From: Phycisphaerales bacterium
Lineage (GTDB): Bacteria > Planctomycetota > Phycisphaerae > Tepidisphaerales > Tepidisphaeraceae
NCBI GenBank assembly: GCA_020847545.1
Contig: JADLBV010000015.1
Location: 1 to 54,659, forward strand
Length of the DNA stretch: 54,659 bases
Direction: 5' to 3'
The notes beneath the pieces were generated by a model. That model was given only the letters and a program-made list of their open reading frames with translations, ran no database searches and was not told where the DNA came from. The translations under genes were made by a program, and so were the position numbers. Positions 21,591 to 40,800 of this stretch are shown piece after piece. Position 1 is the stretch's first letter, and each line of letters starts with the position of its first letter.

Positions 21591-21622
21591 TATAATGAGA
21601 TAAAAACATGCGAATAAATGTA
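21591..21622 (+). promoter_or_regulatory. -10 box and candidate Rrf2 operator before the regulator gene
   Basis: TATAAT at 21591-21596 is followed after two bases by GATAAAAACATGCG (21599-21612) and then AATAAATGTA. The same block, with -10-like TTTAAT and GATAAGAACATGCG, recurs before the cytochrome gene at 22097-22130. An operator over the transcription start would let the Rrf2 protein repress itself. The core AACATGCG resembles, but does not equal, the NsrR half-site AAGATGCATTT. A TTGACG at 21576 is only nine bases from the -10 box and cannot serve as a normal -35. Confidence 0.55.
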
Positions 21623-21643: not shown

Positions 21644-22078
21644 ATGATCCCGTTGTCGGGCTTGTACGCCATACGAGCCTTGGCCGTACTTGGAAACAGT
21701 ACGGCGAGCGGGTACATCGCCGCGGGAAAGCTGGCGAAGATCGTCGGAGCGCCTCCAAACTATCTGGGCAAGTTGTTGCAGCTTTTGTCACGACATGGGT
21801 TGTTGATCTCGCAAAAAGGATACAGCGGCGGATTTCGGCTGGCCCGGCCGGCGGATCAAATAACACTGGGAGAAGTGGTGGAATGCCTTCAACCACTGGA
21901 ACATTGGTGGGGGTGCCTTTTAGGCCCCAAGCAATGTTCGGAAAACCAGTCGTGTGTCGTGCATGAGCAATGGAAAGCGATCCGACAGCAGTATTTGGAT
22001 TTGTTGCGGAAAACCACGGTTGCACAGGTGATTGTGGAACATCCGAATGCGGGTTTGGAGTGGCCGGTATTGGATTAA
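21644..22078 (+). CDS. Rrf2-family transcription regulator with Fe-S cysteines
   Basis: A 144-residue Rrf2/BadM-type winged-helix regulator. The helix-turn-helix region is SGLYAIRALAVLG through AKIVGAPPNYLGKLLQLLSRHG. The wing follows as ISQKGYSGGFRLARP, the standard QKG-GG-xxLARP motif. Three cysteines at residues 91, 98 and 104 are placed like the cluster ligands of IscR (92, 98, 104) and NsrR (91, 96, 102), so an oxygen-, iron- or NO-sensitive Fe-S cluster is likely. GGAGG five bases before ATG 21644 supports the start. It stands directly before the cytochrome/nar operon, and the promoters of both share a motif, so it is the likely regulator of nitrate respiration here. Confidence 0.92.
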   Translation: MIPLSGLYAIRALAVLGNSTASGYIAAGKLAKIVGAPPNYLGKLLQLLSRHGLLISQKGYSGGFRLARPADQITLGEVVECLQPLEHWWGCLLGPKQCSENQSCVVHEQWKAIRQQYLDLLRKTTVAQVIVEHPNAGLEWPVLD

Positions 22079-22096
22079 ATGATGCTTTTATCGCAC

Positions 22097-22130
22097 TTTA
22101 ATTCAGATAAGAACATGCGTAAATAAGGTA
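22097..22130 (+). promoter_or_regulatory. Second copy of the Rrf2-type operator, before the cytochrome/nar operon
   Basis: TTTAAT (22097-22102) is followed by three bases and GATAAGAACATGCG (22106-22119), then TAAATAAGGTA. The 14-base block differs by one base from the copy before the regulator gene. Spacing to the -10-like box is also the same within one base. It ends seven bases before the ATG at 22138 and therefore overlaps the expected transcription start and leader. A repressor bound here would block the nar-act operon. Confidence 0.5.
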
Positions 22131-22137
22131 AACTCCT

Positions 22138-22998
22138 ATGGCTGCCTACAGGCAAATGGGAACGGGTTGGACGGGTTTGGGGGTGTGGATTGCCCTGCTG
22201 GGGATGGGCATTATCGGACCTGGAGCGGCGTGGGGGCAGGATGCCGCGACCGATTTTCGCAACAACTGCATGAGCTGCCACACCATCGGCGGCGGCCGGC
22301 TGGTCGGGCCGGACTTGAAAGGGGTCACCGACCGCCAGGATCGACAGTGGATATTGAAATTCATCACCGATCCCAAGGCGATGATCGATTCAGGCGATCC
22401 TGAAGCGCAAAAACTGCTGAAAGAATCGGGCGGGGTCGTCATGCCGACACTGCCGCTGGGCAAGGCGCGCATTGAGGCGTTGATCGACCTGCTGGAATCG
22501 GAATCGAAACTGCCCCGGTCGAAATTCGCGGGGCAGGTGGTGAGTGACCGCCCGCTTGGGCCGGCGGATGTGGCGGCCGGAGAGAAGATTTTCACCGGCC
22601 GACAGGCTCTGACCGCCGGCGGGGCGGCCTGTTATTCGTGTCATTCGGTGGAAGGGGTGGGCGGACTTGGGGGCGGATCACTGGGGCCGGACTTAACCAA
22701 GGTATTTGAACGACTCGGCGGGCGAAAGGGCCTGACCGCGTGGCTGGGTTCGCCGGCGACACCGACGATGCAGGCGGCCTTTGGGACTCATCCGCTGGAA
22801 CAAAACGAGATCGAATCCCTGGTGGCCTATTTCCAGGCACAAACACAGTTTGCCGAGACACCCAAGCCCCGACAGATCTTTTTGGGATTGGGGCTGGCCG
22901 GCGCGTGCTTCGCGTTGTGGGGCTTGAATTCGTTGTGGAAAAGGCGTCTGGGCGGGGTCCGACGGGCCATGGTCCAAAAAGCGGCAATCAAAGGATAA
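22138..22998 (+). CDS. narC: Membrane-anchored di-heme cytochrome c (NarC-like)
   Basis: A 286-residue exported cytochrome with an N-terminal signal segment (about 12-33). Heme site 1 is CMSCH (44-48) with a possible Met ligand in [10 protein letters not shown]. Heme site 2 is CYSCH (165-169) with a possible Met ligand in [11 protein letters not shown]-terminal hydrophobic anchor ([16 protein letters not shown], about 249-264) is followed by basic residues. Thermus thermophilus has a di-heme NarC encoded just before narG and needed for its nitrate reductase; position and design match, so the symbol is given by analogy. The stop lies four bases before narG. It could pass electrons between NarGHI, ACIII and periplasmic acceptors. 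Confidence 0.8.
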
Positions 22999-23002
22999 TC
23001 AT

Positions 23003-26000
23003 ATGAGCACCGACCTGAAATGGATTCGGGACACTTCCAATCCCTCCGAGCGGAAATGGGAGGAGTTTTATCGCAACCGCTGGCAACACGACAAGGTGAT
23101 TCGCAGCACCCACGGCGTGAACTGCACCGGCGGATGTTCGTGGCAGATTTACGTCAAGGATGGGATCGTCACCTGGGAAATGCAGGCGCTGGATTATCCG
23201 ATGCTCGCCAATGGCGTCCCTCCTTATGAACCACGCGGCTGTCAGCGCGGAATCTCGTTTTCATGGTATTTGTACAGCCCGATCCGGGTGAAATACCCGT
23301 ATGTTCGCGGGGCGCTGATCGACCTTTGGAAGGCCGCGCGGGCCAAGCATGAAGACCCGGTTGAGGCTTGGCGCAGCCTGGTGGAGGATGAAACCGCCCG
23401 CAAGCGCTGGCAGACGGCGCGCGGCAAGGGTGGCCTGCGCCGGGCGGATTGGGAGACGGTGCTGGAGATCATCGCCGCCTCGACGATCCACACGATCAAA
23501 AAACACGGGCCGGACCGAATCGTCGGTTTTTCGCCGATCCCGGCGATGTCGATGATCAGCTTCGCATCGGGGGCGCGCTTCCTGCAACTGCTGGGCGGCA
23601 CGTTTCTGTCGTTCTACGATTGGTATTCCGACCTGCCGCCGGCGTCGCCGGAGGTCTTTGGCGAACAGACGGACGTGCAGGAGTCGGCCGACTGGTACAA
23701 CGCCAAATTTCTGGCGGTGATGGGGTCAAACCTGAACATGACCCGCACGCCCGACTGTCATTTCGCGGCCGAAGCCCGTCACAACGGCACGAAAATGGTC
23801 GTCTTCGCCCCGGACTTCAACCAGGTGGCGAAATACGCGGATGAATGGCTGGCGGTCAACGCCGGTCAGGATGGCGCGTGGTGGATGGCGGTCAACCATG
23901 TGCTGCTCAAGGAATTTCATCACGAGCAGCAGGTGCCGTACTTCCTGGACTACGCCAAGAAATTCACCGATGGCCCGTTGCTGGTGGAATTGAAGGAAGA
24001 AAACGGCGTGCACGAGGCCGGCCAATTGCTGCGTGCCGACCGCATCGACCGTTATTCCAAGGAAGAAAACGGCCAGTGGAAGTTCCTGGTCTGGGATCGC
24101 GCTGAAAACCGCGTGAAGATGCCGCTGGGGAGCGTGGGTTTCCGCTGGGGCAAGGAAAAAGGGAAGTGGAACCTGCAACCCAAGGATGGCATGGATGGCA
24201 GCGCCATCGACATGGAATTGACGCTGTTGAACAGCCGGGACGATGTCGCATCGGTGCGGCTGGATGATTTTGCCGAGGGCAAAAGCATCGTCCGCCAGGT
24301 GCCCGTCAAGCACATCAAGCTGGCCGATGGATCAACCGTCACCGTCACGACTGTGTACGACATCATGATGGCGCACTTTGGCGTCAGCCGGGGGTTGGGT
24401 GGTGAATATTCATCCAGTTACGACGATGATCTGCCGTACACCCCCGCATGGTCGGAAAAATTCACCGGCCTTGGCCGCGAGGCCGTGATTCGCTTCGCCC
24501 GCGAGTGGGGGCGCACCGCCGAAAAGACCAACGGCAAATGCACCGTCATCATCGGCGCGGGGATCAACCACTGGTATCACGCGAACCTGATGTACCGCGG
24601 CCCGATCACGGCATTGATGCTGTGCGGCTGCGTCGGGGTGAACGGCGGGGGTCTGGCGCACTACGTCGGCCAGGAAAAACTCGCGCCCCAGGAATCATGG
24701 TCCGCCATCGCCTTCGGCAAGGATTGGCACGGGCCATCCCGCCTGCAAAACGCGCCGAGCTGGCACTATGTCAACACCGACCAGTGGCGCTACGAAAAGG
24801 CGTTCACCGATTATCACACCGTCCCCATGCGGCAGCCGAAGGATTCGCTGGCGCAGGGACACACGATGGACACGCAGATACGGGCCGTGCGCAGCGGCTG
24901 GCTGCCGTTTTATCCGCAGTTTGACAAAAACAACCTGGATGTGGCCAAAGAGGCGCAACAGGCGGGCGCCAAGACCGATCAGGAGGTCGGTGCTTACATC
25001 GCGGGACAGCTCAAGAACAAGAAACTGAAATTCTCGGTTGAAGACCCCGATGCGCCCAGCAACTGGCCGCGGCTTTGGTTTATCTGGCGCGGCAACGCGT
25101 TGATGGCCAGCGCCAAGGGGCATGAGTATTTCCTCAAGCACTATCTGGGCACCCACCACAACTCGATCTCCAGCGAGGAGCTGGCCAAGGATTCGGTCAA
25201 GGAAGTGGCGTGGCACGAGGTGGCGCCCAAGGGAAAGATGGACCTGGTGGTGGATTTGAACTTCCGCATGGACACCTCCGCCCTCTATTCGGACATCATT
25301 TTGCCGGCGGCGACGTGGTACGAAAAGGCGGACTTGAACAGCACGGACATGCACAGCTTCGTCCATCCGCTGTCGCCGGCGGTTCCACCCTGCTGGCAAT
25401 CCAAGACCGACTGGCAGATATTCCGCTCGATCGCGCGAAAGGTTTCGGAATTGTCCGAACGGCATTTCCCCGAACCGGTTGCGGATGTGGTGGCGTCGCC
25501 GCTGTCGCACGACTCGCCGGCGGAGATCGCCCAGCCACAGATGCTGGACTGGAGCAAGGGGGAATGCGAGCCGATCCCCGGCAAGACGATGCCCTCGTTC
25601 GGCGTGGTGATGCGCGACTACCGCAATTTGTACAACCAGTACAACTCCCTGGGGCCGCGCGTGCGAGAAAAAGGACTCGGCGCGCACGGGACGCACTATC
25701 AGTGCGCCGACTTCTACGACCAGATGGTGGCGACCGGCCCGGTCAAAAACTGGGGGGGCAAGACCTACCCCTCGATCTCCGAGGACAAGGAAGTCTGCAA
25801 CACCATCCTGCACCTGGCCAGCGTCTCCAACGGCGAACTGGCGTATCGTTCCTACAAAAATATCGAGGAAAAGGTGGGCCTGCCGCTGGCGCACTTGGCG
25901 GAAAAGATGCGTAGTGTGCGGATGACCTACGAAGGGTTGCAGACCCGCCCGCACCGCGTGCTCAACAGCCCGATGTGGTCGGGACTGGTGGAGGATGGGC

Positions 26001-26641
26001 GTCCCTATTCTCCCTTCACCTACAACGTGGAAAACCAGGTTCCGTGGCGTACGCTGACCGGCCGCCAGCATTTTTATCTGGACCACCCCGCGTACATCCA
26101 ATTCGGCGAGCATGTGCCGACGTTCAAGCCCAAGCCGCTGCCGACGCAGTACGCCGACCTGACGTTCAGCGTCAAGGCGGGCAAGACCAAGATGCTCAAT
26201 TATCTGACGCCGCACGGCAAGTGGCACATCCACTCCACCTACGGCGACACCGAGCGGATGATGACGCTCTCGCGCGGCATCGAGCCGTTCTGGATCAACG
26301 ACAAGGATGCCGAGGAGATCAGCGTCAACGACAACGACTGGGTGGAGGTCCACAACGACAACGGCGTCGTGGTGACCCGCGCCGCCGTCAGCGCCCGCAT
26401 CCCGCGCGGCGTCTGCATCCAGTACCACTCGCCCGAGCGCACGCTGTCGGTGCCGCGCTCGCCGCTGCGTGGTAACAAACGGGCCGGCGGGCACAACTCG
26501 CTGACGCGCACGCGGCTCAAACCCAACCTGATGGTCGGCGGTTACGGCCAGTTCACCTTCCACCTCAATTACTGGGGCCCGGTGGGCTGCAACCGCGACA
26601 CGCATGTGCTGGTGCGAAAACTTCCGGAGTTGAACTGGTAA
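23003..26641 (+). CDS. narG: Respiratory nitrate reductase, catalytic alpha subunit NarG
   Basis: A 1212-residue molybdopterin subunit that reduces nitrate to nitrite. The FS0 cluster ligands appear as His37, Cys41, Cys45 and Cys80 (HGVNCTGGC... PRGC), the His-first pattern of true NarG. The Mo ligand Asp is D210 in [13 protein letters not shown], equivalent to Asp222 in E. coli. Long identities to NarG run through this region ([15 protein letters not shown]). No twin-arginine signal is visible at the N-terminus, so the active site should face the cytoplasm as in E. coli. It follows the di-heme cytochrome gene by four bases and precedes narH by 35. Length is close to the E. coli protein (1247). 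No nitrate transporter is encoded in the window. Confidence 0.98.
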
Positions 26642-26676
26642 GAACCAACTTGAACCCCTGATCCGAAGGTGTTGTT

Positions 26677-28167
26677 ATGAATGTGCGTTCGCAGATCGCG
26701 ATGGTGTTTCACCTCGACAAGTGCATCGGGTGTCATACCTGTTCCATTGCCTGCAAAAATATCTGGACCGACCGCGAAGGCGCGGAGTACATGTGGTGGA
26801 ACAACGTCGAAACCAAGCCGGGCACCGGTTTCCCCACCCGCTGGGAGGACCAGGACACCTACCGCGGCGGCTGGGAGGTCAAGGAGGGCAAACTCCGACT
26901 TCGCTCGGCCAACAAGGGTTATGTGCTGGGCAAGATTTTTCACAACCCCGCCCAACCGAGCATCGACGAATATTACGAACCCTGGACCTACAGGTATCAG
27001 GACCTGTTCAACGCCCCCGAAGGTTCGGACCAGCCCATCGCCCGCCCGGTCTCGAAGATCACCGGCAAGGAGATCGCCATCGAAGCCGGCCCCAACTGGG
27101 ATGACGACCTGGGCGGCTCGCCGGTCTACGCCGAGAACGACCCCAACCTCGACTCCCTCTCCGAGGAGCAGCGCGAACAACTCTTCGCGATCGAACGGCT
27201 GGTGATGTTCTATTTCCCGCGCATCTGCAACCACTGTCTCAACCCCTCATGCGTGGCGGCCTGTCCATCGGGCGCCATCTACAAGCGCGGCGAGGATGGG
27301 ATCGTCCTGATCGACCAGACCCGCTGCCGCGGCTGGCGCGCGTGCGTGTCGGCCTGCCCCTACAAAAAGGTCTTCTTCAACTGGAAAACCGGCAAGAGCG
27401 AAAAATGCCTCCTCTGTTTCCCGCGCCTGGAGACCGGACAGGCCCCCGCCTGCTTCCACTCGTGCGTGGGGCGTATCCGATACCTGGGCGTGCTGCTGTA
27501 CGATGCCGACCGCATCGAGGAGGTGGCGCTCAGCAGCGATGAGAACCTGATCGAGGCCCATCGCTCGATGATCCTCGACCCCCACGACCCACAGGTCATC
27601 CGTCAGGCCCAGAGCAACGGCGTCCATGATTCAGTCATCGAGTCAGCGCAGAAATCGCCGGTGTACCAGTTCGTCAAGGTCTGGAAAATGGCCCTGCCGC
27701 CGCACATCGAATTCCGCACGCTGCCGATGCTCTTTTATGTCCCGCCGATGTCGCCGGTGATGTCGATGCGCAAGGGGGATGTGCTGACGCAGTCCGACCA
27801 GGGCCTGTTTCATGAAATCGACAACGCCCGCGTGCCGATGCAATACCTCGCCAAGCTGTTCGGGGCCGGCCACGACGCCAAGGTGCGTTATGCACTGAAA
27901 AAACAGATGGCCATCCGATCCTATCGCCGCGCCGTCACGGTCGGCGACATCGAGCCGCACATCGCCGACCAGATGCTGCGCGAGGCCGACTGCACGCCGG
28001 CCGAGGCCGAGGCGATTTACAAGCTCACCTCCCTTTGCACCTTCGAGGAACGCTTTGTCATCCCCCCCATGCACCGCGAAGAGGCGCTGGAAATGATGGA
28101 GGACCCGATGGATCACAAGCGTGAAACCGGGTTCGGAGTGATGGACAAACCCATGAGGGGATCATGA
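26677..28167 (+). CDS. narH: Nitrate reductase iron-sulfur beta subunit NarH
   Basis: A 496-residue electron-transfer subunit carrying four Fe-S clusters. The first cluster motif has C16, C19, C22 and C26 (CIGCHTCSIAC), exactly as in E. coli NarH. The motif CRGWRACVSACPYKK shows the Trp replacing a cysteine, which gives the [3Fe-4S] cluster typical of NarH. Further cysteines occur in CNHCLNPSCVAACPSG and EKCLLCFPRLE. It passes electrons from the NarI hemes to NarG. Its stop codon overlaps the start of narJ (28164-28167). Confidence 0.98.
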   Translation: MNVRSQIAMVFHLDKCIGCHTCSIACKNIWTDREGAEYMWWNNVETKPGTGFPTRWEDQDTYRGGWEVKEGKLRLRSANKGYVLGKIFHNPAQPSIDEYYEPWTYRYQDLFNAPEGSDQPIARPVSKITGKEIAIEAGPNWDDDLGGSPVYAENDPNLDSLSEEQREQLFAIERLVMFYFPRICNHCLNPSCVAACPSGAIYKRGEDGIVLIDQTRCRGWRACVSACPYKKVFFNWKTGKSEKCLLCFPRLETGQAPACFHSCVGRIRYLGVLLYDADRIEEVALSSDENLIEAHRSMILDPHDPQVIRQAQSNGVHDSVIESAQKSPVYQFVKVWKMALPPHIEFRTLPMLFYVPPMSPVMSMRKGDVLTQSDQGLFHEIDNARVPMQYLAKLFGAGHDAKVRYALKKQMAIRSYRRAVTVGDIEPHIADQMLREADCTPAEAEAIYKLTSLCTFEERFVIPPMHREEALEMMEDPMDHKRETGFGVMDKPMRGS

Positions 28168-28703
28168 GAGCCTTGAGAATCGAAATCTACGCCGCATTGG
28201 CGGAATTGCTGGCCTACCCTGGTGAAGATTTTCACACACAGGTCAAGGCGACGGCCGCGCTCTTGCGAACCACCCAACCCGATGCGGCCGCGCATCTGGA
28301 CCGGTTCTCACAACAGATCGCCGACCAATCGCCGCAGCAATTGGAAGAATCGTATACGCGCACCTTCGACATCAACCCCGTCTGCTGTCTTGAAGTCGGC
28401 TGGCACCTGCACGGCGACAACTACGACCGGGGTGATTTCATGGTGCAGATGCGCAAAAACCTTCGCGAACTGGGACTGGAGGAGGGATTGGAACTGCCCG
28501 ATCACCTCACCCATGTATTGCCGGTCGTCGGCCGGCTGCGGGAGGACGAAGGGGATGAGCTGGCGAAAAATTCGGTCGCGCCGGCCATCGGCAAAATGCT
28601 CGAAGGTCTAGCCGGAAAAGAGAACCCGTACGAACAGGTGCTGCTGTCGGTCATGCGGCTGCTGCCACAGGCGCAGGCCGCATCTACAGGGAGTGCAACA
28701 TGA
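28164..28703 (+). CDS. narJ: Nitrate reductase assembly chaperone NarJ
   Basis: A 179-residue all-helical chaperone of the TorD/NarJ family, which inserts the molybdenum cofactor into NarG and holds back membrane docking until maturation. Recognisable are the LAELLAYPGEDF region near residue 13, the SYTRTFDINPVCCLEVGWHL stretch (about 62-81), with YTRTFD as the family hallmark, and LPDHLTHVLPVVGRL near residue 110. It overlaps narH by ATGA and narI by ATGA, so the four nar products are probably made in fixed ratio. Slightly shorter than E. coli NarJ (236). Confidence 0.95.
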   Translation: MRALRIEIYAALAELLAYPGEDFHTQVKATAALLRTTQPDAAAHLDRFSQQIADQSPQQLEESYTRTFDINPVCCLEVGWHLHGDNYDRGDFMVQMRKNLRELGLEEGLELPDHLTHVLPVVGRLREDEGDELAKNSVAPAIGKMLEGLAGKENPYEQVLLSVMRLLPQAQAASTGSAT

Positions 28704-29392
28704 GCGGCTCAATATTGGACATTTTTCTGTTTGTCGTGCTGCCCTACGCGGCGACGGCGATCTTCTTCATCGGAACAATTCGGCGCTACCGCACGCAGCC
28801 GTTTTCCTATTCCTCCCTCTCGTCGCAGTTCCTGGAAAACAAAAAGCATTTCTGGGGACTGGTTCCGTTCCATTATGGCCTGATCGTGATCCTGACCGGC
28901 CATCTGATCGGATTTCTGATTCCCCGCACGGTCCTCTGGTGGAACCGCGTGCCGGCACGGCTCTACATCCTTGAAATCAGCGCCCTGATCTTCGGCCTGC
29001 TGACGTTGATCGGGTTGATCCAGATCATCTACCGCCGATTCTCCTCCCAGCGCGTCCTCGTGGTCACCTCCGTGATGGACTGGGTGTTGTATGTTCTGCT
29101 GCTGATCCAGATCGTACTCGGGCTTTACACCGCCGTGGCCTATCCGTGGGGATCGACCTGGTTCGCGGCGCTGGCGGCCCCGTATCTGTGGTCGCTGTGC
29201 AAATTCTCACCCGATGTTTCGTTTGTCGCGCCGTTGCCCTGGATGTTCAAGGCGCACATCGTCGGCGCCTACGCCCTGATCGCGATCTTCCCCTTCACCC
29301 GACTCGTCCACCTGCTGGTTTATCCCTTGCCGTATGTCTGGCGCAAACCACAGGTGGTGCGCTGGTATTCACGGCCGGAGGGCATCCGATGA
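28700..29392 (+). CDS. narI: Nitrate reductase cytochrome b gamma subunit NarI
   Basis: A 230-residue quinol-oxidising di-heme b subunit with five membrane helices. The axial histidines stand out: PFHYGLIVILTGHLIG holds two His ten residues apart (as His56 and His66 of E. coli), and AHIVGAYALIAIFPFTRLVH holds two His eighteen residues apart (as His187 and His205). It takes electrons from menaquinol or ubiquinol and feeds NarH. Its stop codon overlaps the first codon of actA (ATGA at 29389), so nitrate reductase and alternative complex III are translationally linked. Confidence 0.97.
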   Translation: MSGSILDIFLFVVLPYAATAIFFIGTIRRYRTQPFSYSSLSSQFLENKKHFWGLVPFHYGLIVILTGHLIGFLIPRTVLWWNRVPARLYILEISALIFGLLTLIGLIQIIYRRFSSQRVLVVTSVMDWVLYVLLLIQIVLGLYTAVAYPWGSTWFAALAAPYLWSLCKFSPDVSFVAPLPWMFKAHIVGAYALIAIFPFTRLVHLLVYPLPYVWRKPQVVRWYSRPEGIR

Positions 29393-30042
29393 ATCGCCCG
29401 ATCATTCTGGTCGTGCTGTTGGTGGCGATGGGATTTGGTTTGTGGGCGGCGGTGGCCCCGCTGTCGGCGGTGCGCCTGCCGGGCGACAACCAGTTCTACG
29501 AACCCGAGCAACCCATCGCCTATTCCCATCGCCTTCATGCCGGCGAACTGGGGATCAACTGTCTCTATTGCCACGGCGCGGCCGAACATTCACGCCGGGC
29601 CGGCGTCCCCGCCGCCAGCACCTGCATGAACTGCCACAAATACGTCACCTCGACGATCAGCGCCAAACGCGCTGAGGATGAACTGGCACAAAAGGAAAAC
29701 CGCTCCCCCCGGCGCATCGTCTCCACCGAACTGGCCAAACTCTACGATGCCATGGGCCTGGATGAGCACATGAACGTGGACCCCAAGCGCAAACAGCACC
29801 CCATCGAGTGGACCCGCATCCACCACCTTCCGTCGTTTGTCACCTTTGACCACAGCCGCCACGTCAACGCGGGCGTCACCTGCCAGACCTGCCACGGCCC
29901 CATCGAAACCATGGAACGTGTCCGCCAGATTCCCGACCTGACGATGGGATGGTGCGTCAACTGCCATCGCGACGTCAATGCCAACGGCGTCAACGGCAAA
30001 CCGGTCCAGGCCTCGACCGATTGTATTTCGTGCCACCAATAA
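29389..30042 (+). CDS. actA: Alternative complex III pentaheme cytochrome ActA
   Basis: A 217-residue membrane-anchored cytochrome with five CxxCH heme sites: CLYCH (58), CMNCH (79), and CQTCH, CVNCH and CISCH in the last third. An N-terminal helix (IILVVLLVAMGFGLWAAVA) anchors it. Five hemes is the number known for ActA in Rhodothermus, Roseiflexus and Flavobacterium complexes. The start at 29389 overlaps the narI stop by four bases; an in-frame start 243 bases earlier would lie inside narI and is rejected. ActA is thought to deliver electrons from the complex to a periplasmic cytochrome c. Confidence 0.93.
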   Translation: MNRPIILVVLLVAMGFGLWAAVAPLSAVRLPGDNQFYEPEQPIAYSHRLHAGELGINCLYCHGAAEHSRRAGVPAASTCMNCHKYVTSTISAKRAEDELAQKENRSPRRIVSTELAKLYDAMGLDEHMNVDPKRKQHPIEWTRIHHLPSFVTFDHSRHVNAGVTCQTCHGPIETMERVRQIPDLTMGWCVNCHRDVNANGVNGKPVQASTDCISCHQ

Positions 30043-30057
30043 GCCCCGGGAGTTACG

Positions 30058-33000
30058 ATGTCCGACATCGACAACAAGCATTACTGGAAAGCCCCCGCCG
30101 GCCGAAACGGCGCCGAAGGGTATCAACTCAAGGTCATCAACGAATTTCCCGAGGAACTGGACCTCAAGGGCGAATCGGAAGGGATCAACCGCCGCAGCTT
30201 TCTGAAGGCGACCGGCTTCGCCTTCGCCGGCGCCGTGGTGGCGCAAATGACCGGTTGCAGCCGACCCCCCGAACTGAAAATCATCCCCTTCCTCGAACAA
30301 CCCGAAGAAATCATCCCCGGCCGCGAATATTGGTACGCCTCCACCTGCCACGGATGCAGCGCCGGTTGCGGCATCCTCACCCGCAATCTGGACGGCCGGC
30401 CGATCAAACTCGAAGGCAACCCCCATCATCCCCTCTCCAAAGGGGGCCTGTGCGCCGTCGGCCAGGCGTCCATCCTCCCGCTGTATGACTCGCATCGCCT
30501 TCGCGTCCCCATGATGGGCAACAAGGAGGCCACCTGGGCACAGGTCGATCAGGCGATCACCACCCAACTGGCCGACCTCCGTAAAAAAGGCGCCGCGGTT
30601 CGATTTTTATCCTCCACCGTCAACAGCCCCACACTGCGTCGATCCATCCGCGAATTTCTGGCCGATTTCCCCGGCGCACGGCACATCCAATACGATGCGC
30701 TCTCCTCCTCCGCCATCCAAAGCGCCCATCAGACCACCCACGGCGCGCGCATCTTGCCCCATTATCGATTTGACCGCGCCCGCATGATTGTCAGCTTTGA
30801 TGCGGATTTTCTGGGGACATGGATTTCACCCGTTGAATTCACCCGCGACTATGCCGCCGGCCGGTCGTTGCAAAGCACACCCCCCACGATGTCGCTGCAT
30901 GTGCAACTTGAGTCGCGCATGTCGTTGACCGGATCATCCGCCGACCGGCGGCATGTCGTCACGCCACGGGAATGTGAAGGCATGGTGGCATTGCTCGCCG
31001 GCAAAATCGCCAAATTGGCCGGCCAATCCAGCGCCGTCATCGCGGAGACAAATCCGCATTTCACCGCCATCATCGACGAACTGGCCGACCAGCTCTGGCA
31101 TCATCGCGGCCAGAGCCTCATCATCAGCGGCAGCAACCAGACCGCCACACAGGTCCACATCAACCGAATCAACCATCTGCTGGGCAACGAAGGTCAGACC
31201 ATTGATCTGACCGCTCCCTCACAACAACGCATGGGGGATGATGGCGAGCTTGAAAAACTCCGCCAGGAAATCGCCGCCGGCAAAGTCGCCGCCCTGTTCA
31301 TTCTCAACGCCAACCCCGCCTACGACCTGCCCGATTTCGCCGAATTTACCCAGCAGGTTCAGCAGGTTCCCCTGATCGTCAGCTTCGCCGACCGCCTCGA
31401 CGAAACCGCGAGTCTCGCTCACTTTGTCTGCCCCGATCACCATTACCTCGAATCCTGGCATGACCAGGAACCGGTCGCCGGTTTGATCACCATCACACAG
31501 CCCTCCATCAACCCCCTGCATCAGACCCGCGCCGTCGTCGAAAGCCTCTCCCTCTGGCACGGCAAGCCGGTCGACGCCCACACCTTCATGCAGCAAACCT
31601 GGCAACAGGAAATTCTCAAACGTCAAAACACCCACAGCCAGTTTCAGCCCTTCTGGGATCAGGCCCTCCAGATGGGCTTCGTGCAGGTCAAACCCGATGC
31701 GACCACCCCAAAATCCTTCAACGCATCGGCCGTGGGCAATGCGGCCACCACCCAACCATCCGTGCCTTCGGGGAAGCTGGCACTGGTGCTTTACCCCACC
31801 ATCGGAATGCTCGATGGCCGCCACGCCCACAATCCCTGGCTGCTCGAATTGCCCGACCCCGTCACCAAGGTGACGTGGGACAACTACGCCTCCTTCTCCC
31901 CCGCAACCGCCGATGCGCTGGGAATCAAGGAAGGAGATGTTGTCCGCCTCACGGACGACCAGATCAAAATCGAACTCCCCGCCCATCTGCAACCGGGCCA
32001 AAACGACCAATCGGTCGCCGTTGCACTCGGTTACGGCCGCAAGGGAACCGACCGGTTCGCCTTCATCGGCCCGCAATGGCTTGAATCCAAACCAACCGTT
32101 GAACCGGGCCACCTGATCGGCCAAAACGCCGCGATTTTCCTAGCCCGACAGAACAACCAGACCCTCTATTCCACCCGCTCGGTTCAGGTCCAACGCACCG
32201 GCGCCCGCCACGAACTGGCCTGCACCCAACTGCATCACTCCATCGATGTGCCGGCCAACCTGGCCACACCGGCCGAGCGCCGCCGGCCCATTGTCGAGGA
32301 GACCACCCTCGCCGCACTGATCAAAGACCCACATGCCGGCGCTCATCATCAGGAACTGTTCCCTTCCCTATGGGCGCCCGATCATAAATATCCCGGCCAC
32401 AAATGGGGCATGTCCATCGACATGAACGCCTGCACGGGTTGTTCGGCCTGCGTCGTCGCCTGTCAGATCGAAAACAACATCCCGATCGTCGGCAAGGATG
32501 AAATCGCCCGCCAGCGCGAGATGTATTGGATGCGAATCGACCGCTATTACACCTCCGAGGGGGATGATACGGATGTCGCCCACCAACCGATGCTCTGCCA
32601 GCATTGCGAAAACGCCACCTGCGAAACCGTCTGCCCCGTGCTCGCCACCGCCCACAGCTCCGAAGGCATCAACATGCAGGTCTACAACCGCTGTGTCGGC
32701 ACCCGCTACTGCGCCAACAACTGCGCCTACAAGGTTCGCCGGTTCAACTGGTTCAACTACGCCCATGAGGATCAGATGCAGAACATGATCCTCAACCCCG
32801 AGGTCACCGTCCGTGACCGCGGCGTCATGGAAAAATGCTCGTTCTGCATCCAACGCATCTCCAACGCCAAGGCCCGCGCCAAGGAAAACGGCGTGCCCCT
32901 CGCCGACGGCGATGTCAAAACCGCCTGCCAGCAATCCTGCCCGGCGCAGGCGATCGTTTTCGGCGACCTCAACGACCCCAACAGCCAGGTCTCGAAAATG

Positions 33001-33114
33001 AGGGCCAATGGACGCGCCTACCGCGTGCTGGAAGAACTGAAAGTGGAACCATCCATCGACTATCTGCGAATCGTCCGCAACCGTCCGCAACAATTGGAGG
33101 ACTCACATGTCTAG
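30058..33114 (+). CDS. actB: Alternative complex III molybdopterin-like/Fe-S subunit ActB
   Basis: A 1018-residue fusion of a molybdopterin-oxidoreductase-like domain and an NrfC-type Fe-S domain, as in other ACIII ActB proteins. A twin-arginine signal [14 protein letters not shown] (about 43-56) and a following lipobox-like AQMTGC suggest export and possible lipid attachment. The first domain opens with [13 protein letters not shown] near residue 95; in known ACIII the Mo cofactor is absent from this fold. The Fe-S domain (about 781-985) has [35 protein letters not shown] and CQQSCP groups, enough for four clusters. It overlaps actC by eight bases. Confidence 0.95.
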
Positions 33115-34504
33115 TGCTTATTCGGTCTTGCGACAACCTCTGGTTGAAGGAGACCGCACGGTTGCGCAGGTGACGGCGGACATCTCCGCCCCACTCGAAC
33201 GCCGCGCCGGCGCGATGTGGTGGATCACCTTCGGCATCGTCTTCTCGATGCTTGTGCTGGGACTGGCCGCCATCACCTATCAGGTCGCCACCGGCATCGG
33301 CACCTGGGGCCTCAACCGCACCGTCGGCTGGGCCTTTGACATCACCAACTTCGTCTTCTGGATCGGCATCGGCCACGCCGGCACCGCCATCTCCGCCTTT
33401 TTGTTTCTGCTCCGCCAGCGCTGGCGCACCTCCATCAGCCGGGCCGCCGAGGCTATGACCATCTTCGCCGTCATGTGCGCCGGCATCTTCCCGCTCATTC
33501 ACATGGGCCGCCCGTGGTTCGCCTACTGGGTCTTGCCCTATCCCAACACCCGCGGCTCCCTGTGGGTCAACTTCCGATCCCCGCTGCTGTGGGACGTCTT
33601 TGCCATCAGCACCTATTTCACCATCTCCGCGGTCTTCTGGTACCTGGGGCTTGTGCCGGACTTGGCAACCCTTCGTGACCGCTTCGCCCCCCTTGCCAAA
33701 AACGGCCCCCTGGGCGCCAAACTGCGCTATCGCCTCTATTGCATCCTCAGCCTTGGCTGGAATGGATCGGCCAAAACCTGGAACAGTTACGAATCCCTCT
33801 ATCTGCTCCTGGCCGGCCTGGCCACGCCGCTGGTCGTCTCCGTCCACTCCATCGTCAGCTTCGACTTCGCCACCTCGGTCCTTCCCGGCTGGCACACCAC
33901 CATCTTTCCACCCTATTTCGTCGCGGGGGCCTTGTTCTCCGGGTTCGGCATGGTGCTGACGCTCATGCTCATCGCGCGCAAGGTCGTCCACATGGAAAAT
34001 TACATCACCCGCGGCCACATCGACGCCATGTGCAAGATCGTCATCGCCACCGGCGGCATGGTCGCCCTCGCCTACATGACCGAAATTTTCATCGCCTGGC
34101 AGTCGGGCAATCTCTATGAACGCTTCGCCTTCGCCAACCGCGCCTTCGGGCCTTTCGGGTGGGCCTACCGGATCATGGTCTTCTGCAACGTCTTCGCGCC
34201 ACAGTTGTTGTGGATCCGCAAAATCCGCCACAATCTACTGTTGGTCTTCATCCTCTCCATCTTTGTCAACATCGGCATGTGGTTTGAGCGGTTCGTGATC
34301 ATCGTCACCTCGCTGCACCGCGATTTCCTCCCCTCAAGCTGGGCACACTACACCCCATCCCTGATCGAAATCGCCACCCTGATCGGGAGCTTCGGCCTCT
34401 TTTTCACCGCCTTCCTCCTCTTTTGCCGACTGCTCCCGATGATCAGTATTTCCGAAGTCAAAGGCGTGCTGAATTACGGCCGCCGCAATGGAGAACACCA
34501 ATGA
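33107..34504 (+). CDS. actC: Alternative complex III NrfD-like quinol-binding subunit ActC
   Basis: A 465-residue integral membrane protein of the NrfD/PsrC family with about ten helices. After a 35-residue N-terminal lead the first helix begins near [17 protein letters not shown]. Family stretches are [17 protein letters not shown] and [16 protein letters not shown]. In ACIII structures this subunit binds menaquinol at the periplasmic side and forms the membrane core with ActF. The gene overlaps actB by eight bases and actD by ATGA. Confidence 0.96.
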
Positions 34505-35067
34505 GCCGCCAACTCTTCACCGCGGCCTTTGAGCGCGAGGAAGACCTGCTCCACGCCGTCGCCGACCTGCGACAGGCGGGATACGTCTTCAAGGACGCTT
34601 ATACCCCTTACCCGGTTCACGGATTGCCCGAGGCGATGGGACTGCGCCCTTCGCGCCTGCCGTGGGTCTGCTTTTTGTGTGGATTGACCGGCGGCATTTT
34701 TGCCCTTTTGGCACAGCTTTATCTTTCGGCCGTCGACTGGCCCATCAACATCGGCGGCAAACCCTGGAATTCCAGCCCCGCCTTCATCCCCATCACCTTT
34801 GAAATCACCGTCCTGTCGGCCGGGATCGGCTCACTGCTGGCGTTCCTGCTGCGATACAAACTCCTGCCCGGCCGACAACCTTCGGTCCTGGAAGAAGGGT
34901 GCAACGACAACCTGTTTGTCCTGGCCATCCCCGAACACAACGCCACCTTCAACCCCCAGGAATTGAAAATCATCTGCAATCGCCACCACGCCATCCGCAC
35001 CGATCAACGCATCGAACCCGATGGCCAAACCAAACCCACACCCGCCCAACAACGAGGAGCCGCCTGA
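34501..35067 (+). CDS. actD: Alternative complex III subunit ActD (DUF3341)
   Basis: A 188-residue membrane subunit with two helices (about 58-78 and 98-120) and a small soluble N-terminal ferredoxin-like fold that begins [35 protein letters not shown] near residue 35 is the DUF3341 hallmark. ATG 34501 overlaps the actC stop (ATGA), while an upstream in-frame start at 34423 would be inside actC. ActD has a structural role in the complex; no cofactor is expected. Confidence 0.94.
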
Positions 35068-35696
35068 TGAAAACCGGTAAATGGATCACCCCTCTGGCGG
35101 TGCTGGTGCTGATCCTCCTGATCGGCGGATGGATGCTGCGCCCCGATTATTCCCGCCGAAATTACGACTTCCTCCCTGACATGGCCTATTCACCGGCCTA
35201 TGCCTCCCTCTCGGCCAACCCCAACTTCCCCGATGGCAAAACCGAACAACGCCCCGTCCCCGGAACCATCGCACAGGGGTATCCACCCTTCCACTACAAA
35301 GCCACCCCCGAAGACGCCCGCCGGGCCGGTCTGGAACTGACCAATCCCTTCCCCTCCACCGACGCCCTGGCCCTTCAGCGCGGCGCCACCGTCTATTCCA
35401 TCTATTGTCAGGCCTGTCACGGCGCCACCGGCGCCGGCGACGGCACGGTCGTCCAACGCGGATTCCCGCCACCCCCTTCGCTCCTGGCCGACAACGCCCG
35501 GCAGATCAAGGATGGACAGATGTACCACCTCATCACCCTCGGCCAAAACAACATGCCCTCTTACGCCGCACAGGTGATGCGCGACGACCGCTGGAAAGTG
35601 ATCCTCTTTATCCGTTCGCTACAGGCCGCCGCCGTCCCGGCCGCCCCCACAACCACCAACGCGACAACCACCGCTACCGAACCGTCCGCCAAATAG
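35067..35696 (+). CDS. actE: Alternative complex III monoheme cytochrome c ActE
   Basis: A 209-residue exported cytochrome with a single heme site CQACH (114-118) and a likely distal Met in NNMPSY (near 163). The N-terminal hydrophobic stretch (PLAVLVLILLIGGWML) is a signal or anchor. The stretch DMAYSPAYASLSANPNF matches the ActE N-terminal region that wraps on other subunits. The stop of actD and the ATG of actE share one base (TGATGA). The C-terminus is a low-complexity Ala/Thr tail. Confidence 0.93.
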   Translation: MKTGKWITPLAVLVLILLIGGWMLRPDYSRRNYDFLPDMAYSPAYASLSANPNFPDGKTEQRPVPGTIAQGYPPFHYKATPEDARRAGLELTNPFPSTDALALQRGATVYSIYCQACHGATGAGDGTVVQRGFPPPPSLLADNARQIKDGQMYHLITLGQNNMPSYAAQVMRDDRWKVILFIRSLQAAAVPAAPTTTNATTTATEPSAK

Positions 35697-35704
35697 GAAA
35701 CCTC

Positions 35705-36877
35705 ATGACCACGATGCAACTGCCCACGTTCATCCCCCGCCCCGCGCTGCTGACCCGGCTGCGACTGCTGATCGCCCTGGGCGTCATCGGCACGCTGGTC
35801 GGCCTGATCGCCGCGCCCAAATTGACCCTCGGCGGCCTGCTGCTTGGCGCGTGCTACAGTCTTGGCATGGGGCTGGGCGCGATGGTCATCATCTCCCTCA
35901 GTTACATCACCAAGGCCGGCTGGAGCACCGCACTGCGCCGAATCCCCGAATCCATGGCCGCCACGCTTCCACTCACCTGCCTGATCCTTCTGATCATCCT
36001 GGCCGCGGGGTTTTATCAGCTCTATCCCTGGTTCAACAGCCACGAACATGGCCACGCAGATGCCTCGCTGACACTGTGGCGCAAGCCCGCCTTCTTTCTG
36101 GCCCGCGCCGCCGGCTGCATGATCATCTGGCTGATCTTTTCCTTCGCCATCCTGCGAAATTCACGCAAACAGGACCTCAGCGGCGACCTCCGCCTCACCC
36201 ATCGCAACGTCGGCCTTTCGGCCGTGTTCCTCTTTGCCCTGGCGATCACCCTCTCGCTGGCCACCTTTGACTGGTTTATGAGCCTCCAGCCCCACTGGAT
36301 CAGCACCATGCTGGGCGTCTATCACTTTTCCGGCCTGTTTCAGTCGGCCATCGCCGCGATGATCGTCATCACCATCCTGCTGCAACGCGCCGGCCTCCTG
36401 CAACAGATCGTCAAACCCGCCCACCTGCACGACCTGGGCAAATACCTCTTTTGCTTCACCACCTTCTGGGGCTACATCTGGTTCTGCCAGTACATGCTGA
36501 TCTGGTATTCCAACATCCCCGAGGAAACCTCCTACTTCATCCTCCGCCACAACGGCCCCTGGCTGGCCGTCGCCTATGTCACGGTCGCGATGAACTGGGC
36601 CATCCCCTTCTTCGGACTCCTCTCCGCCACCACAAAACGCAACGACCGCCTGCTTTTCAAACTCGCCGTGATTGTGCTGATCGGCCACTGGATCGACCTC
36701 TACGGCATCATCGTCCCCTCGCTGGCGGGCGATGCCACCATGATCGATTTCTGGTCGGTCCTCCCCAGCCTGATCCTGCTGCCGATCTTTGTCCTGGGCA
36801 TGATGCGGGCTTTGCGCGCGTCACCGCTGATGCCGGCCCGCGACCCCATGCTGGTCGAGAGCCTGCATCATCATTAA
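35705..36877 (+). CDS. actF: Alternative complex III NrfD-like subunit ActF
   Basis: A 390-residue polytopic subunit with about ten helices, the second NrfD-like core protein of ACIII. ATG 35705 (MTTMQLPTFIPRP) sits eight bases after the actE stop; the longer in-frame reading from 35405 would run through actE. Typical marks are SLSYITKAGWSTALRRIPE near residue 60, FDWFMSLQPHWISTMLGVYHFSG (shown in parts: ATFDWFMSLQPHW and MLGVYHFSG), and IWFCQYMLIWYSNIPEET near 260. No oxidase, Sco or further cytochrome gene follows; the next gene is on the opposite strand. Confidence 0.95.
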   Translation: MTTMQLPTFIPRPALLTRLRLLIALGVIGTLVGLIAAPKLTLGGLLLGACYSLGMGLGAMVIISLSYITKAGWSTALRRIPESMAATLPLTCLILLIILAAGFYQLYPWFNSHEHGHADASLTLWRKPAFFLARAAGCMIIWLIFSFAILRNSRKQDLSGDLRLTHRNVGLSAVFLFALAITLSLATFDWFMSLQPHWISTMLGVYHFSGLFQSAIAAMIVITILLQRAGLLQQIVKPAHLHDLGKYLFCFTTFWGYIWFCQYMLIWYSNIPEETSYFILRHNGPWLAVAYVTVAMNWAIPFFGLLSATTKRNDRLLFKLAVIVLIGHWIDLYGIIVPSLAGDATMIDFWSVLPSLILLPIFVLGMMRALRASPLMPARDPMLVESLHHH

Positions 36878-37886: not shown

Positions 37887-40800
37887 TTACTGGACTTTTG
37901 CGCCGCATTTGGTGCAGAACTTGGCCCCCGGCGTCAGTGGAGCGCCGCAATGGGTGCAGAATTTGGGTGTTTTCTGATTGGAATTGTCGGCCGGCGGGGC
38001 GGGTGGCGGTGTCTCTGGTGCCGACGGCGATTGCGACGAAGGGGGCAGTTTGGACGCATCAAACACCACGGATGTGGTGCCCTTTGTGTTGATCCAGAAT
38101 TCACCCTCAAACGTCGATCCGGCATATTCCGTCGAAAAATGATATTTCCCTTCGGGCAACGATTCGGAATCGCCGAATTTGCCCCGATAGACCTCGCGGC
38201 CTTTGCTATCGGCAACGATAAATATCTCCGGCGTCCCCAGCACCGCGGCGCGCAATTCCTGCAACAGCGAGTCCGACTTTTCCGCCACCCAATAATGACC
38301 CCGGCCGGCAATCGCCATGTTCTGCAATTGCTCGGTCCAGTCGGGGCGGTTGATGTTGAATCCCACGATGTGAAAATCAACCCCTTTGATGTTGGCGATT
38401 TTGGTCGCGACTTTCACCGGATCCTGTCGCGGCTGGCTGTCCTCGCCGCCGTCGGTCAGCAGCACCAGCGTGAACGGGCGATCCTCGCGGCCAGCGCCCA
38501 GATCGCCGGCCGCCTGTTGCAGACTGAATGCCAGCGGCGTCTTGCCTCTGCAACGCAGGCTTTGCAACTTCTGTAAAAACACCTTTTTGTTCAATGTCCC
38601 CATCGGCAGGACCAGCTCCGTGTCCTGATCCGCATCCTTTTCGATGGCGCTTTTTCGATGACCATACACGCGCAGCGCCACCTGGGAATCATCAGGCAAT
38701 TCGTTGATCATCGCAGCCACCGCATCCCGTGCGATGTCGAACTTGCGCTTGCCGTCGATCTCCTCCAGCATCGACCCCGAGGCATCCAGAATGATGTACA
38801 GTGTCGTCGGTTTGGCGACGACGGCGGTCTTGAGCGTGCCGTTGCCGCCGCGCGGACGTTCGACATTGAGCGTCGGCGTGGCGCGGGTCAAAAACAGCAG
38901 CGCAAAACTGGTCGCCAGGCGCGGGTCCGCCTCATTCCCCTTGCCCATCCAGCTTCCATCGGGCTTTTGCTGATCCACCAGGTATCGCGCCCCCAGCGGA
39001 TACCATTCGTGTCGGCCGATGAATTCGATGCCGAGAATCTGCCCCACCCGTTCCAGCGAATAAATGTAATAGTAATCCCAGATGCCGCTTTTGGGATTTT
39101 CAGAGACGCTGAAATTTTGCGCCGCCCACGCCAGTCCGCGCGTAATCGCCGGATCGTCCGCTGGTTTGGCCTCACCCAATTCATGCCGATTGATCGCGAT
39201 CGCGCAGATGCCGGCACAACTCATCGAACCATACGAAGAACCATCCGACCGGCCGTGATACGCCCAGCCCCCTTCCTTGTTCTGGCGGGTGCGATAGGCC
39301 TCCAGGTTTTTCATCCATGTCGCCGCCGGCAGTCGGATTCCGCTGCGCGAGGCCGAATGCAGACCCAGCAACGCGAATTGCGACACCGAATTGTCCCCAT
39401 CCTGTCCCTTGTCCCAATCCGTCTGCCGCGTCCATTGTTCGCCGGCCGAGCCGGGGCCTTCCAACGGCGTGCCACCAGAAATCCGAAGCACTCGATCTTC
39501 ATCCGCGTTTTTAAACAGCTCCTTGGGCACGTTTGTGTTGTATGTCCAGGTCCCTTCCTTCCCCTGTGCCTCCAGCAGATAGCGCGTTGCCTGTTTGAGC
39601 TTGGGATAAAAGGCCGGATCGCCATAACTCTCAATCAACATGCACAGCAAACCTCCCTGATATCCTCCCAGGTGGCTGGCATCGATCTTGGTTAAATAAC
39701 TTCGCAGCGCCGCGTTAAAATCCGGAAACCTCTCATGCGCCTTGGCATGCACCAGCGCCAGTGCGCACAACACATGCTCCTGTCGGTCGCCAAAATAATC
39801 CGGCTTGTCGGCCCTGTCCTCTTTTTTCAGATATTCCCACAAAAATGCGGCCCCCCGGTCAATCGCCTCGTTCACCTGCTCGGCCTTGAGGCCGACACCG
39901 GCCAGACCCTTGGGTTCGAGCGGAGGTTCAACCACAGACGGCGGGGCAACGGGTTCATTTTTCGCCGCCGGCGGTTGTACGGGCGGAACAGGTTTGACCT
40001 GTTCAGCCTGCGCCTGTTCGGACTTGGCTGGCGGCTCCTGTTCTGGCGGGGTGGAATCGGGGATGGCCGCATGATCCTCTGTCTGAGCCTCTGCCGATTC
40101 ACCGCCCGCCGCGATCGGCTGCAACAACATCACCTTTCCCGGACCCGTCGGCGAAAGGTACGCCAGCCGGGGCTTGGTTTGATCCTCCCCGATGGCATAT
40201 ACCACCTCAAACGCCCGCTGTTCGCCGGCCGGAATCCACAACAACTCCATCGGAGGATGCACGGCTTTTAGCGATGCCGGGTCGTATGTTGTCTGTTGGC
40301 CCGATTGCGAGACATACAGCAATTGTTGGCTGGTCTGGAAAAATTCCCCCTGTTTGTTCAGGTTTTTCACCAGCAGGTCCAAAACCAGAAATCGACTCCC
40401 CTGCGGCGTTTGCACCCCGACAAATTCCGTCGCCGTTTTCTGACTTGTCACCGTGACGGCGAACAGGCCATCCTCGGTTGAAACGATCGGTGTCACCTTG
40501 AGCGGAAGCGGCCGTGTGCCTTCCACCGCCAGCGTGATTCCCGTTGGCCGCAGGGTTTTGCCGTTGATGGCGGCATTGGGAAAATCGAGACGCAGCTCCA
40601 GCGATTGAGATTTATCAGGCACCAGGAAAACCGCCGTCCCGCCGGTGAACAGATCCGGCAAAAATCGCGGCTCGGCCTCCAAGATTCCAATGGGCATCGA
40701 CCCATACGCATACACCCCGTCAACAACCAGTTGCAAATATTGTCGGGACTCCTTCCAATCCGCCACCGTGCCGATTTTCATCTTCTGACCTGGTTTGGCC

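Follow-up and report, generated by a model that had tools for sequence, protein, structure and literature searches.

A nitrate reductase operon that continues into alternative complex III genes in a Phycisphaerales bacterium, and the recurrence of this pairing across bacterial genomes

Alternative complex III (ACIII) is known from the ACIII-caa3 of Rhodothermus and the ACIII-aa3 of Flavobacterium (PMC5928083, PMC8552683). Here we analysed a contig of 54,659 nucleotides (JADLBV010000015.1, hereafter the window) from the Phycisphaerales bacterium GCA_020847545.1, in which the genes of a membrane-bound nitrate reductase (nar) run on into a full set of ACIII genes (act), a gene order that recurs in dozens of other assemblies. 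The encoded ACIII has the same subunits, haem counts and key residues as the Rhodothermus and Flavobacterium complexes, but its neighbour is a nitrate reductase and not an oxidase, and the mobile cytochrome domain resembles part of a separate protein, NarC.

On the nitrate reductase side, the Thermus narCGHJIKT cluster (PMC7694296) shares a diheme NarC encoded 5' of narGHJI, nitrate transporter genes that follow, and an arginine at the position of Lys86 of Escherichia coli NarI. No act genes follow nar in the Thermus plasmid region covered. Moreover, the Thermus NarC was proposed to replace complex III (PMC7694296), whereas in the window complex III is supplied. The arrangement itself, which the initial annotation of the window took to be new, was already printed in 2023 with a different reading: metagenome-assembled genomes (MAGs) from an Oslofjord tunnel have the same order, nar followed by a 5-haem cytochrome, mbd, nrfD, actD, ccoP and ccoII, in 13 instances (Suarez et al. 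2023, PMC10732223), and MAGs of the same names, OFTM5 and OFTM389, are among our loci (L064, L081; G, C and L numbers are our handles for genomes, contigs and loci). The passages of that paper on the cluster do not use the name ACIII and propose an NrfAH-like nitrite reductase or an electron-transport complex unlike those described. They place oxygen reductase genes downstream in five instances, whereas we found none near nar-linked ActDs. Beyond these passages, we add NarC as a candidate bridge, the grouping of the nar-linked ACIIIs apart from other ACIIIs, and a spread beyond Planctomycetota and KSB1. Service of ACIII to anaerobic acceptors (nitrite, iron, N2O) has also been proposed (PMC5317091 for Caldithrix, PMC9386147 for MBNT15, and PMC9270275); the passages concerned draw no link from ACIII to a nar operon, and Caldithrix abyssi is said there to lack nar. 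ACIII and narGH are both reported for Phycisphaerae, where the text concerned does not join them (PMC11266412). In the open-licence PMC literature we found no paper naming a nar-encoded ACIII as dedicated, which is no proof of absence. Haloarchaeal nar operons, whose NarG faces the periplasm, contain Rieske and cytochrome b genes; the complex-III-like module encoded with nar there consists of bc-type parts and is not an ACIII.

Gene content and layout of the operon

The window is a single contig of a draft genome (3.75 Mb, 162 contigs, 95.6% complete). Between 21644 and 36877 all genes lie on the forward strand, in the order rrf2, narC, narG, narH, narJ, narI, actA, actB, actC, actD, actE, actF:

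21644 to 22078, + strand: rrf2, Rrf2-family regulator (Pfam PF02082, 100.8 bits; CX6CX5C cysteine cluster read in the sequence)
22079 to 22137, + strand: leader with the putative operator GATAAGAACATGCGTAAATAAGG (by likeness to the rrf2 leader)
22138 to 22998, + strand: narC, membrane-anchored diheme cytochrome c (2 CxxCH motifs; Thermus match)
23003 to 26641, + strand: narG, nitrate reductase alpha subunit (TIGR01580, 1543.7 bits, cut-off 1084; best PDB match E. coli NarG)
26677 to 28167, + strand: narH, beta subunit (TIGR01660, 663.2 bits, cut-off 524)
28164 to 28703, + strand: narJ, chaperone (TIGR00684, 64.5 bits, cut-off 59.35)
28700 to 29392, + strand: narI, dihaem b membrane subunit (TIGR00351, 131.2 bits, cut-off 105.55)
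29389 to 30042, + strand: actA, pentahaem cytochrome c (5 CxxCH; 33% identity to the oxidase-linked ActA of the same genome)
30058 to 33114, + strand: actB, fused molybdopterin-like and Fe-S subunit (best PDB match Rhodothermus marinus ActB, 6f0k_B, E 1.4e-194)
33107 to 34504, + strand: actC, NrfD-like quinol-binding subunit (PDB matches 6btm_C, 6f0k_C)
34501 to 35067, + strand: actD (passes the ACIII-specific Pfam model PF11821, 170.1 bits)
35067 to 35696, + strand: actE, monohaem cytochrome c (PF13442; 1 CxxCH; 35% identity to the other ActE of the genome)
35705 to 36877, + strand: actF, NrfD-like membrane subunit (PDB matches 6btm_F, 6f0k_F; no Pfam family)

From rrf2 to actF the spacings are, in order, 59, 4, 35, -4, -4, -4 (narI/actA), 15, -8, -4, -1 and 8 bases, and the widest gap from narC to actF is the 35 bases between narG and narH. 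ATGA overlaps join narH to narJ, narJ to narI, narI to actA (29389-29392) and actC to actD, with further overlaps of 8 bases at actB/actC and 1 base at actD/actE. Such ATGA overlaps are an ordinary feature of operons. Terminator-like sites between 20900 and 38000 stand at chance level (16 observed, 17.3 expected). The initial annotation had described a diheme cytochrome gene, narGHJI and actABCDEF without an intervening terminator, four ATGA junctions, and cytochromes of 2, 5 and 1 hemes; open reading frames (ORFs), NCBIfam, Pfam and PDB matches, the coordinates, the terminator count and the CxxCH motifs of NarC, ActA and ActE bear out all of this. The rrf2 gene was absent from its list.

All four Nar proteins exceed the curated NCBIfam cut-offs, which identifies a membrane-bound NarGHI. 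The best PDB matches of ActB, ActC, ActD and ActF are subunits of solved ACIII structures; ActA and ActE were named from position, haem count and their 33-35% identity to the other ACIII of the same genome. The actABCDEF set is complete, with a pentahaem ActA and a monohaem ActE. In the printed alignments ActC H139, D169, S245 and D253 (R. marinus numbering), ActD E122 and ActF Y284 are all conserved; the same residues were proposed to take part in quinol oxidation and proton coupling in the Rhodothermus ACIII (PMC5928083). To judge by these alignments, the catalytic residues of the operon ACIII are intact. No oxygen reductase gene was found directly 3' of the window act genes, where a gene of another kind comes next to actF on the opposite strand, and the COX1-family genes of the genome sit on other contigs.

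The Rrf2 protein matched only the NCBIfam superfamily TIGR00738 and scored below the NsrR and IscR equivalog cut-offs; its cysteine-bearing sequence is probably that of a redox, NO or Fe sensor of the operon. Of the 28 loci in which 1 kb or more of sequence precedes narG, 20 have an rrf2 gene there in the same orientation. The leaders of rrf2 and narC share the element GATAARAACATGCGWAWAWA, and its core ACATGCG[AT]A[AT]A is found at 21606 and at 22113 and nowhere else in the window, once per leader. Both leaders are similar in the sibling locus L006, with the exact pattern before narC and a changed one before rrf2; L010 has a variant before narC. We infer from this likeness that the element is a putative operator.

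Recurrence of the pairing and grouping of the nar-linked ACIIIs

A NarI-family match was present in 31 genomes of a 397-genome sample of the class, from which loci were drawn at all 16 strong NarI places (the window and 15 more) and at 3 of the 22 weaker ones. Window-type nar genes occur in 12 of the 397 genomes; act follows nar in 10 of them and the contig ends first in the other two (G348, G277). In three of the 12 (G336, G274, G315) the contig begins inside nar, with narC itself outside it. The four remaining strong NarI places (G302 twice, G251, G393) hold nar genes of another type, with no act genes in the stretch covered. A wider search with ActA alone (alignment A1) as query retrieved at least 80 named loci, and all its figures are counts among the matches listed. 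In 62 of 80 loci actA is preceded by nar genes in the same orientation, another 9 run out of sequence within 3.4 kb upstream of actA, and 9 lack nar, namely six Bacteroidota ACIIIs together with L059, L087 and L100. By record title the nar-act loci come from about 12 phyla (Planctomycetota, Acidobacteriota, Zixibacteria, Ignavibacteria, Hinthialibacteria, Bacteroidetes, Hydrogenedentota, Fimbriimonadaceae, Chlorobi, Verrucomicrobiia, KSB1, Calditrichota and one 'Deltaproteobacteria' MAG). Binning errors may lie behind some of these titles, since in the ActC tree L096 stands beside L082 (Thermoanaerobaculia) and L110 beside L103 (Calditrichota). The coupling of Nar with ACIII described by the initial annotation is conserved in these 62 loci and, because the pairing comes with an ACIII group of its own, it is stronger than was thought there.

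An assembly or binning artefact joining unrelated operons has practically no chance of explaining the junction. The draft genome has 162 contigs, of which the window is one, and no point in support of an artefact was found; gene order and ATGA weld are repeated in the sibling genome G016 (L006), and the order returns in dozens of other assemblies, which rules this candidate out. The initial annotation had named a junction unique to an assembly artefact as a ground for dropping its proposal, and the sibling excludes that case.

The direct weld of narI to actA is a different matter. Complete narI and actA genes are present in 65 distinct loci, counted apart from the window and after removal of three duplicates (L048, L064 and L083, equal to L010, L013 and L016 and left out of trees and gap counts); in 15 of the 65, actA begins at most 133 bases from narI. 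Two of these 15 have a 4-base overlap, the sibling L006 and L071 (Acidobacteria MAG). The other 50 loci have 1258-3621 bases between the two genes, with a narK-like match there in 50 of 50; in L015 two such genes encode MFS transporters (Pfam). Elsewhere in the window genome narK is represented only by a weak MFS match of 32.6 bits, obtained with one of two narK queries. Since a narK-like insert is present in 50 of the 65 loci, the direct weld is one end of a continuum. Thus the proposed weld exists here and in the sibling, and the suggested search for narI immediately before actA returns the 15 narrow cases, but the usual state is a separated one and the specific weld is incidental. SLAC1-family anion channel genes also lie beside act genes of the nar clade, between narI and actA (L054:8832-9935), upstream of actA at a contig end (L053:1-1098) and downstream of actF (L062:17514-18656); they are perhaps nitrate or nitrite channels.

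Trees were built for ActC (81 rows, quick search) and ActB (86 rows, FastTree), with L053, L057, L059 and proteins beyond the length limits left out. The outside set is a sample of 17 second ACIIIs (15 near an oxidase-scoring COX1, that is, above 300 bits; L135 and L137 not) and 7 Bacteroidota loci. The nar-linked ACIIIs group together, apart from these sampled others (support 99 for ActB, 91 for ActC). A second ACIII of the window genome, encoded at C161 beside an oxidase, falls outside the nar-linked group. The group also holds four rows of unclear or no nar context: L045 and L051 end just upstream of actA, and L087 and L100 have more than 6 kb upstream without nar. An ActE ORF of 565-607 residues with four haem motifs stands in the latter two loci (L087:11886-13583, L100:12937-14760).

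To extend the comparison we surveyed 62 nar-act genomes, 12 from the class and 50 of the named loci; COX1 counts are again among the matches listed. ActD is found in all 62, in at least two copies in 37, and the verified nar-linked ActD is the sole one in 20. Of 55 nar-linked ActDs with verified position, none has an oxidase-scoring COX1 within 9 kb, and for 38 of them the contig continues 9 kb downstream. For other ActD places the figure is 33 of 48 within 9 kb downstream, a set that includes three 29-bit matches (G420 C44, G420 C26, G400 C57). Six places were moved by hand to this other group (G429 C4, G439 C378, G430 C127, G400 C125, G400 C57, G422 C192), and operons whose contig ends before actD were left out of both (G411 C355, G404 C152, G420 C1, G434, G348, G277). 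A bc-type cytochrome b was not matched in 8 of the 62 genomes, the window genome included, and all eight have at least two ActDs.

On the flanks of the operon, a protein of 1234 residues that combines a von Willebrand A domain with a C-terminal zinc ribbon is encoded 3' of it (37887-41591, - strand). A surface polysaccharide cluster at 193-21034 comprises glycosyltransferases of several families, a hexapeptide transferase, an asparagine-synthase-like gene and a Wzy-like O-antigen ligase (10526-11893). Opposite narG, a 636-residue antisense ORF (24695-26605, - strand) is probably a high-GC shadow ORF; antisense ORFs resembling it disturbed the ORF clustering of flanking genes in relatives, from which we took no more than the pointer to the anion channel genes.

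NarC, NarI and the available electron acceptors

The diheme cytochrome encoded directly 5' of narG is homologous to the NarC of Thermus (34% identity over 75%), whose gene is also immediately 5' of narGHJI. A narC is adjacent in all 28 loci whose sequence reaches 1 kb or more upstream of narG, two of which (L008, L011) end before act. A C-terminal helix is predicted at 244-285 in a low-confidence NarC model (mean pLDDT 63.6), which was used for the helix only. For Thermus, two-hybrid assays were reported to show an interaction of NarC with NarI; NarC is described there as a Nar subunit required for Nar maturation, and a role as electron bridge under repression of complex III was proposed for it (PMC7694296). 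With a profile of 18 NarC sequences, the best PDB match was the N-terminal domain of Flavobacterium ActA (6btm_A, E 2.1e-16), and the first haem domain of NarC is the part that best matches this domain. The ActA domain is thought to be mobile and was proposed to shuttle electrons from ACIII to the oxidase (PMC8552683). In addition, six Bacteroidota ORFs found by NarC similarity contain a NarC-like domain and ActA in one frame, with 6 haem motifs in five of them and 7 in one. These relations suggest that NarC is the separate-protein counterpart of the mobile ActA domain and may touch both ACIII and NarI. Hence the idea of the initial annotation that the encoded cytochromes could link the two complexes gains support, from the constant adjacency of narC and from its relation to Thermus NarC and the ActA domain.

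In NarI all four haem histidines are conserved. The residue corresponding to E. coli Lys86, which we take to be part of the quinol site, is arginine in 71 of 71 nar-act NarI rows (3 of them duplicates) and in Thermus. A loss of the NarI quinol site finds no support, with Lys86 replaced by arginine only and the four haem histidines kept. The substitution is no evidence for or against quinol oxidation by NarI.

The window genome gave no match to NosZ, NirS or quinol-type nitric oxide reductase (NOR), and its NirK-like multicopper protein (G000:C5:68954-69733, L122) reached 155 bits against a NirK cut-off of 296; the check for nirK, nirS and nosZ advised by the initial annotation thus turned out negative for NosZ and NirS and below cut-off for NirK. 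The NirK-like gene is followed by reading frames resembling IscA/HesB and SufT genes. An NrfHA pair is encoded at G000:C130 (L147:5184-7218), with NrfH above its cut-off and NrfA above that of Pfam and below that of NCBIfam. With its quinol-linked NrfH, nitrite is probably reducible from quinol without ACIII in the window genome, and the pair suggests a potential for nitrate ammonification. Two COX1-family proteins have oxidase subunit I as best NCBIfam match (one just above, one below cut-off) and carry the motif YSHPAV, presumably an oxygen-reductase signature; by sequence both look like oxidases.

Across the 62 nar-act genomes, NosZ occurs in 10 (its model matched no control genome) and full-length NirS in one (G427), other PF02239 matches being partial or weak. 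NirK is above cut-off in none and below it in 18. Quinol-type NOR is present in 30, one of them weak (G398), in a census of the quinol type with cytochrome-c-type NOR outside the count, where score and length alone served to class COX1-family matches of about 160-260 bits as NOR-like. Quinol-type NOR needs no ACIII. COX1-family enzymes are found in 60 of 62, with none in G438 and G439. These counts rule out a general denitrification link, and the electron branch toward nitrite, NO or N2O reduction envisaged by the initial annotation does not hold in general. No N-oxide reductase searched for is constant across the set; what accompanies the nar-linked ACIII throughout is Nar itself, as follows from how the set was chosen. 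Near nar-linked ActD a quinol-type NOR was seen in two genomes, G345 and G409. That of G345 is the only one found 3' of actF on the same strand (L030:2154-4589, - strand, G345:C48), and an NCBIfam search around it gave no match. The sibling genome has a NosZ match at G016:C3:14807-15019 and the window genome has none, so that two genomes of one genus may differ in their N2O potential.

Explanations for the pairing and what it means

We tentatively favour, at slightly less than even confidence, a nitrate-conditioned respiratory module in which NarCGHI would be made together with a dedicated ACIII under one Rrf2-type regulator, with NarC as the link. NarGHI would oxidise menaquinol and reduce nitrate on the cytoplasmic side, while ACIII would oxidise menaquinol of the same pool, translocate protons and pass electrons through an ActA/ActE haem wire to NarC. 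Seated on NarI, NarC would form a periplasmic electron junction, from which electrons may return into NarI and nitrate or, depending on the species, go to periplasmic oxidants such as a NirK-like protein, a cytochrome-c-type NOR, NosZ or an oxidase. Gene content and order, their conservation, the ACIII grouping, the catalytic residues and the relations of NarC to Thermus NarC and the ActA domain are observed. The conserved pairing, together with the lack of a constant N-oxide reductase, favours the module with NarC as junction; its co-transcription and regulation, the docking of NarC and the direction of electron flow we infer. Several points weigh against it. NarI keeps its four haem ligands, and Nar may therefore run without ACIII. 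ACIIIs of the nar group occur without nar (L087, L100), as does the ACIII of L059. Where the nar-linked ActD is the sole one, ACIII is not dedicated to nitrate unless a bc complex serves the rest. Co-inheritance of narI is higher with nar-linked ActB (r 0.50) than with other ActB (r 0.27) in 14 genomes, with a bootstrap interval that includes zero. Furthermore, an SCO1-fused cytochrome fits the NarC profile nearly as well as ActA (E 2.7e-15) and ranks above it when the single window NarC is the query; cytochrome c domains are promiscuous, so that NarC is a candidate bridge.

Some of these points also agree with plain co-regulation, in which Nar and ACIII are independent enzymes on a shared quinol pool, both wanted at low oxygen, and ACIII feeds soluble carriers for an oxidase or N-oxide reductase. 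The upstream Rrf2 gene, the near-constant COX1-family enzymes, the intact NarI haem ligands and the sole ActDs, which may then serve other cytochrome c acceptors, speak for it; nevertheless, a specific ACIII group sits with nar, NarC accompanies it in every locus where it could be looked for, and no acceptor searched for besides Nar is constant. We therefore regard co-regulation alone as somewhat unlikely. Alternatively, ACIII could send its electrons mainly through NarC into NarI; nitrate would then stand as acceptor behind a proton-pumping complex III in the way that oxygen does when an oxidase is the partner. The NarC-NarI contact in Thermus (PMC7694296) points that way, as do the likeness of NarC to the ActA domain, the constant arginine at Lys86, and G438 and G439, in which COX1-family, NosZ, NirK and quinol-type NOR matches are all absent (completeness figures being absent for both genomes). 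Against it, NarI may still oxidise quinol, since the charge is retained with arginine, and many genomes have other acceptors. With the low haem b potentials of E. coli NarI, the entry of electrons from cytochrome c would be an uphill step. On balance such a cytochrome-c-fed Nar is improbable, and we are just as doubtful of a Nar-ACIII respirasome that would run from ACIII through NarC to NarI with a higher proton yield than a quinol-fed Nar in about a dozen phyla.

Two further readings change the function of one complex. If Nar ran in reverse as a nitrite oxidoreductase, ACIII would serve reverse electron flow to quinone, and a similar cytochrome-containing cluster was reported for Nitrobacter (PMC7694296). 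We consider this very improbable, as NarG is a narG equivalog that scores 1274 bits against E. coli NarG and 111 bits against the nitrite oxidoreductase 7b04 (a Nitrobacter-type sequence stood outside this comparison), and the NrfHA pair of the same genome points to nitrate ammonification. The NrfAH-like nitrite reductase making ammonium, which was proposed for the six act genes from HHpred and their position downstream of nar (PMC10732223), has less still to recommend it. ActC does belong to the NrfD family, and there are weak NCBIfam matches below cut-off (ActA to NrfH, 21.8 of 134.2 bits; ActB to NrfC, 92 of 377.6 bits). The best matches of ActB, ActC, ActD and ActF are, however, solved ACIII chains, no act protein matched NrfA, and a separate NrfA-family protein is encoded beside an above-cut-off NrfH at G000:C130, and on these grounds we reject this reading.

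ACIII is best known as the complex III of aerobic and phototrophic chains, a picture that a large group neighbouring nitrate reductase challenges. The published guess that these act genes encode a nitrite reductase is corrected. NarC gains a second possible partner, and a specific bridge is predicted, with NarC between ActA/ActE and NarI. If it is true that ACIII feeds Nar, the energy yield of nitrate respiration would be underestimated in many uncultured bacteria.

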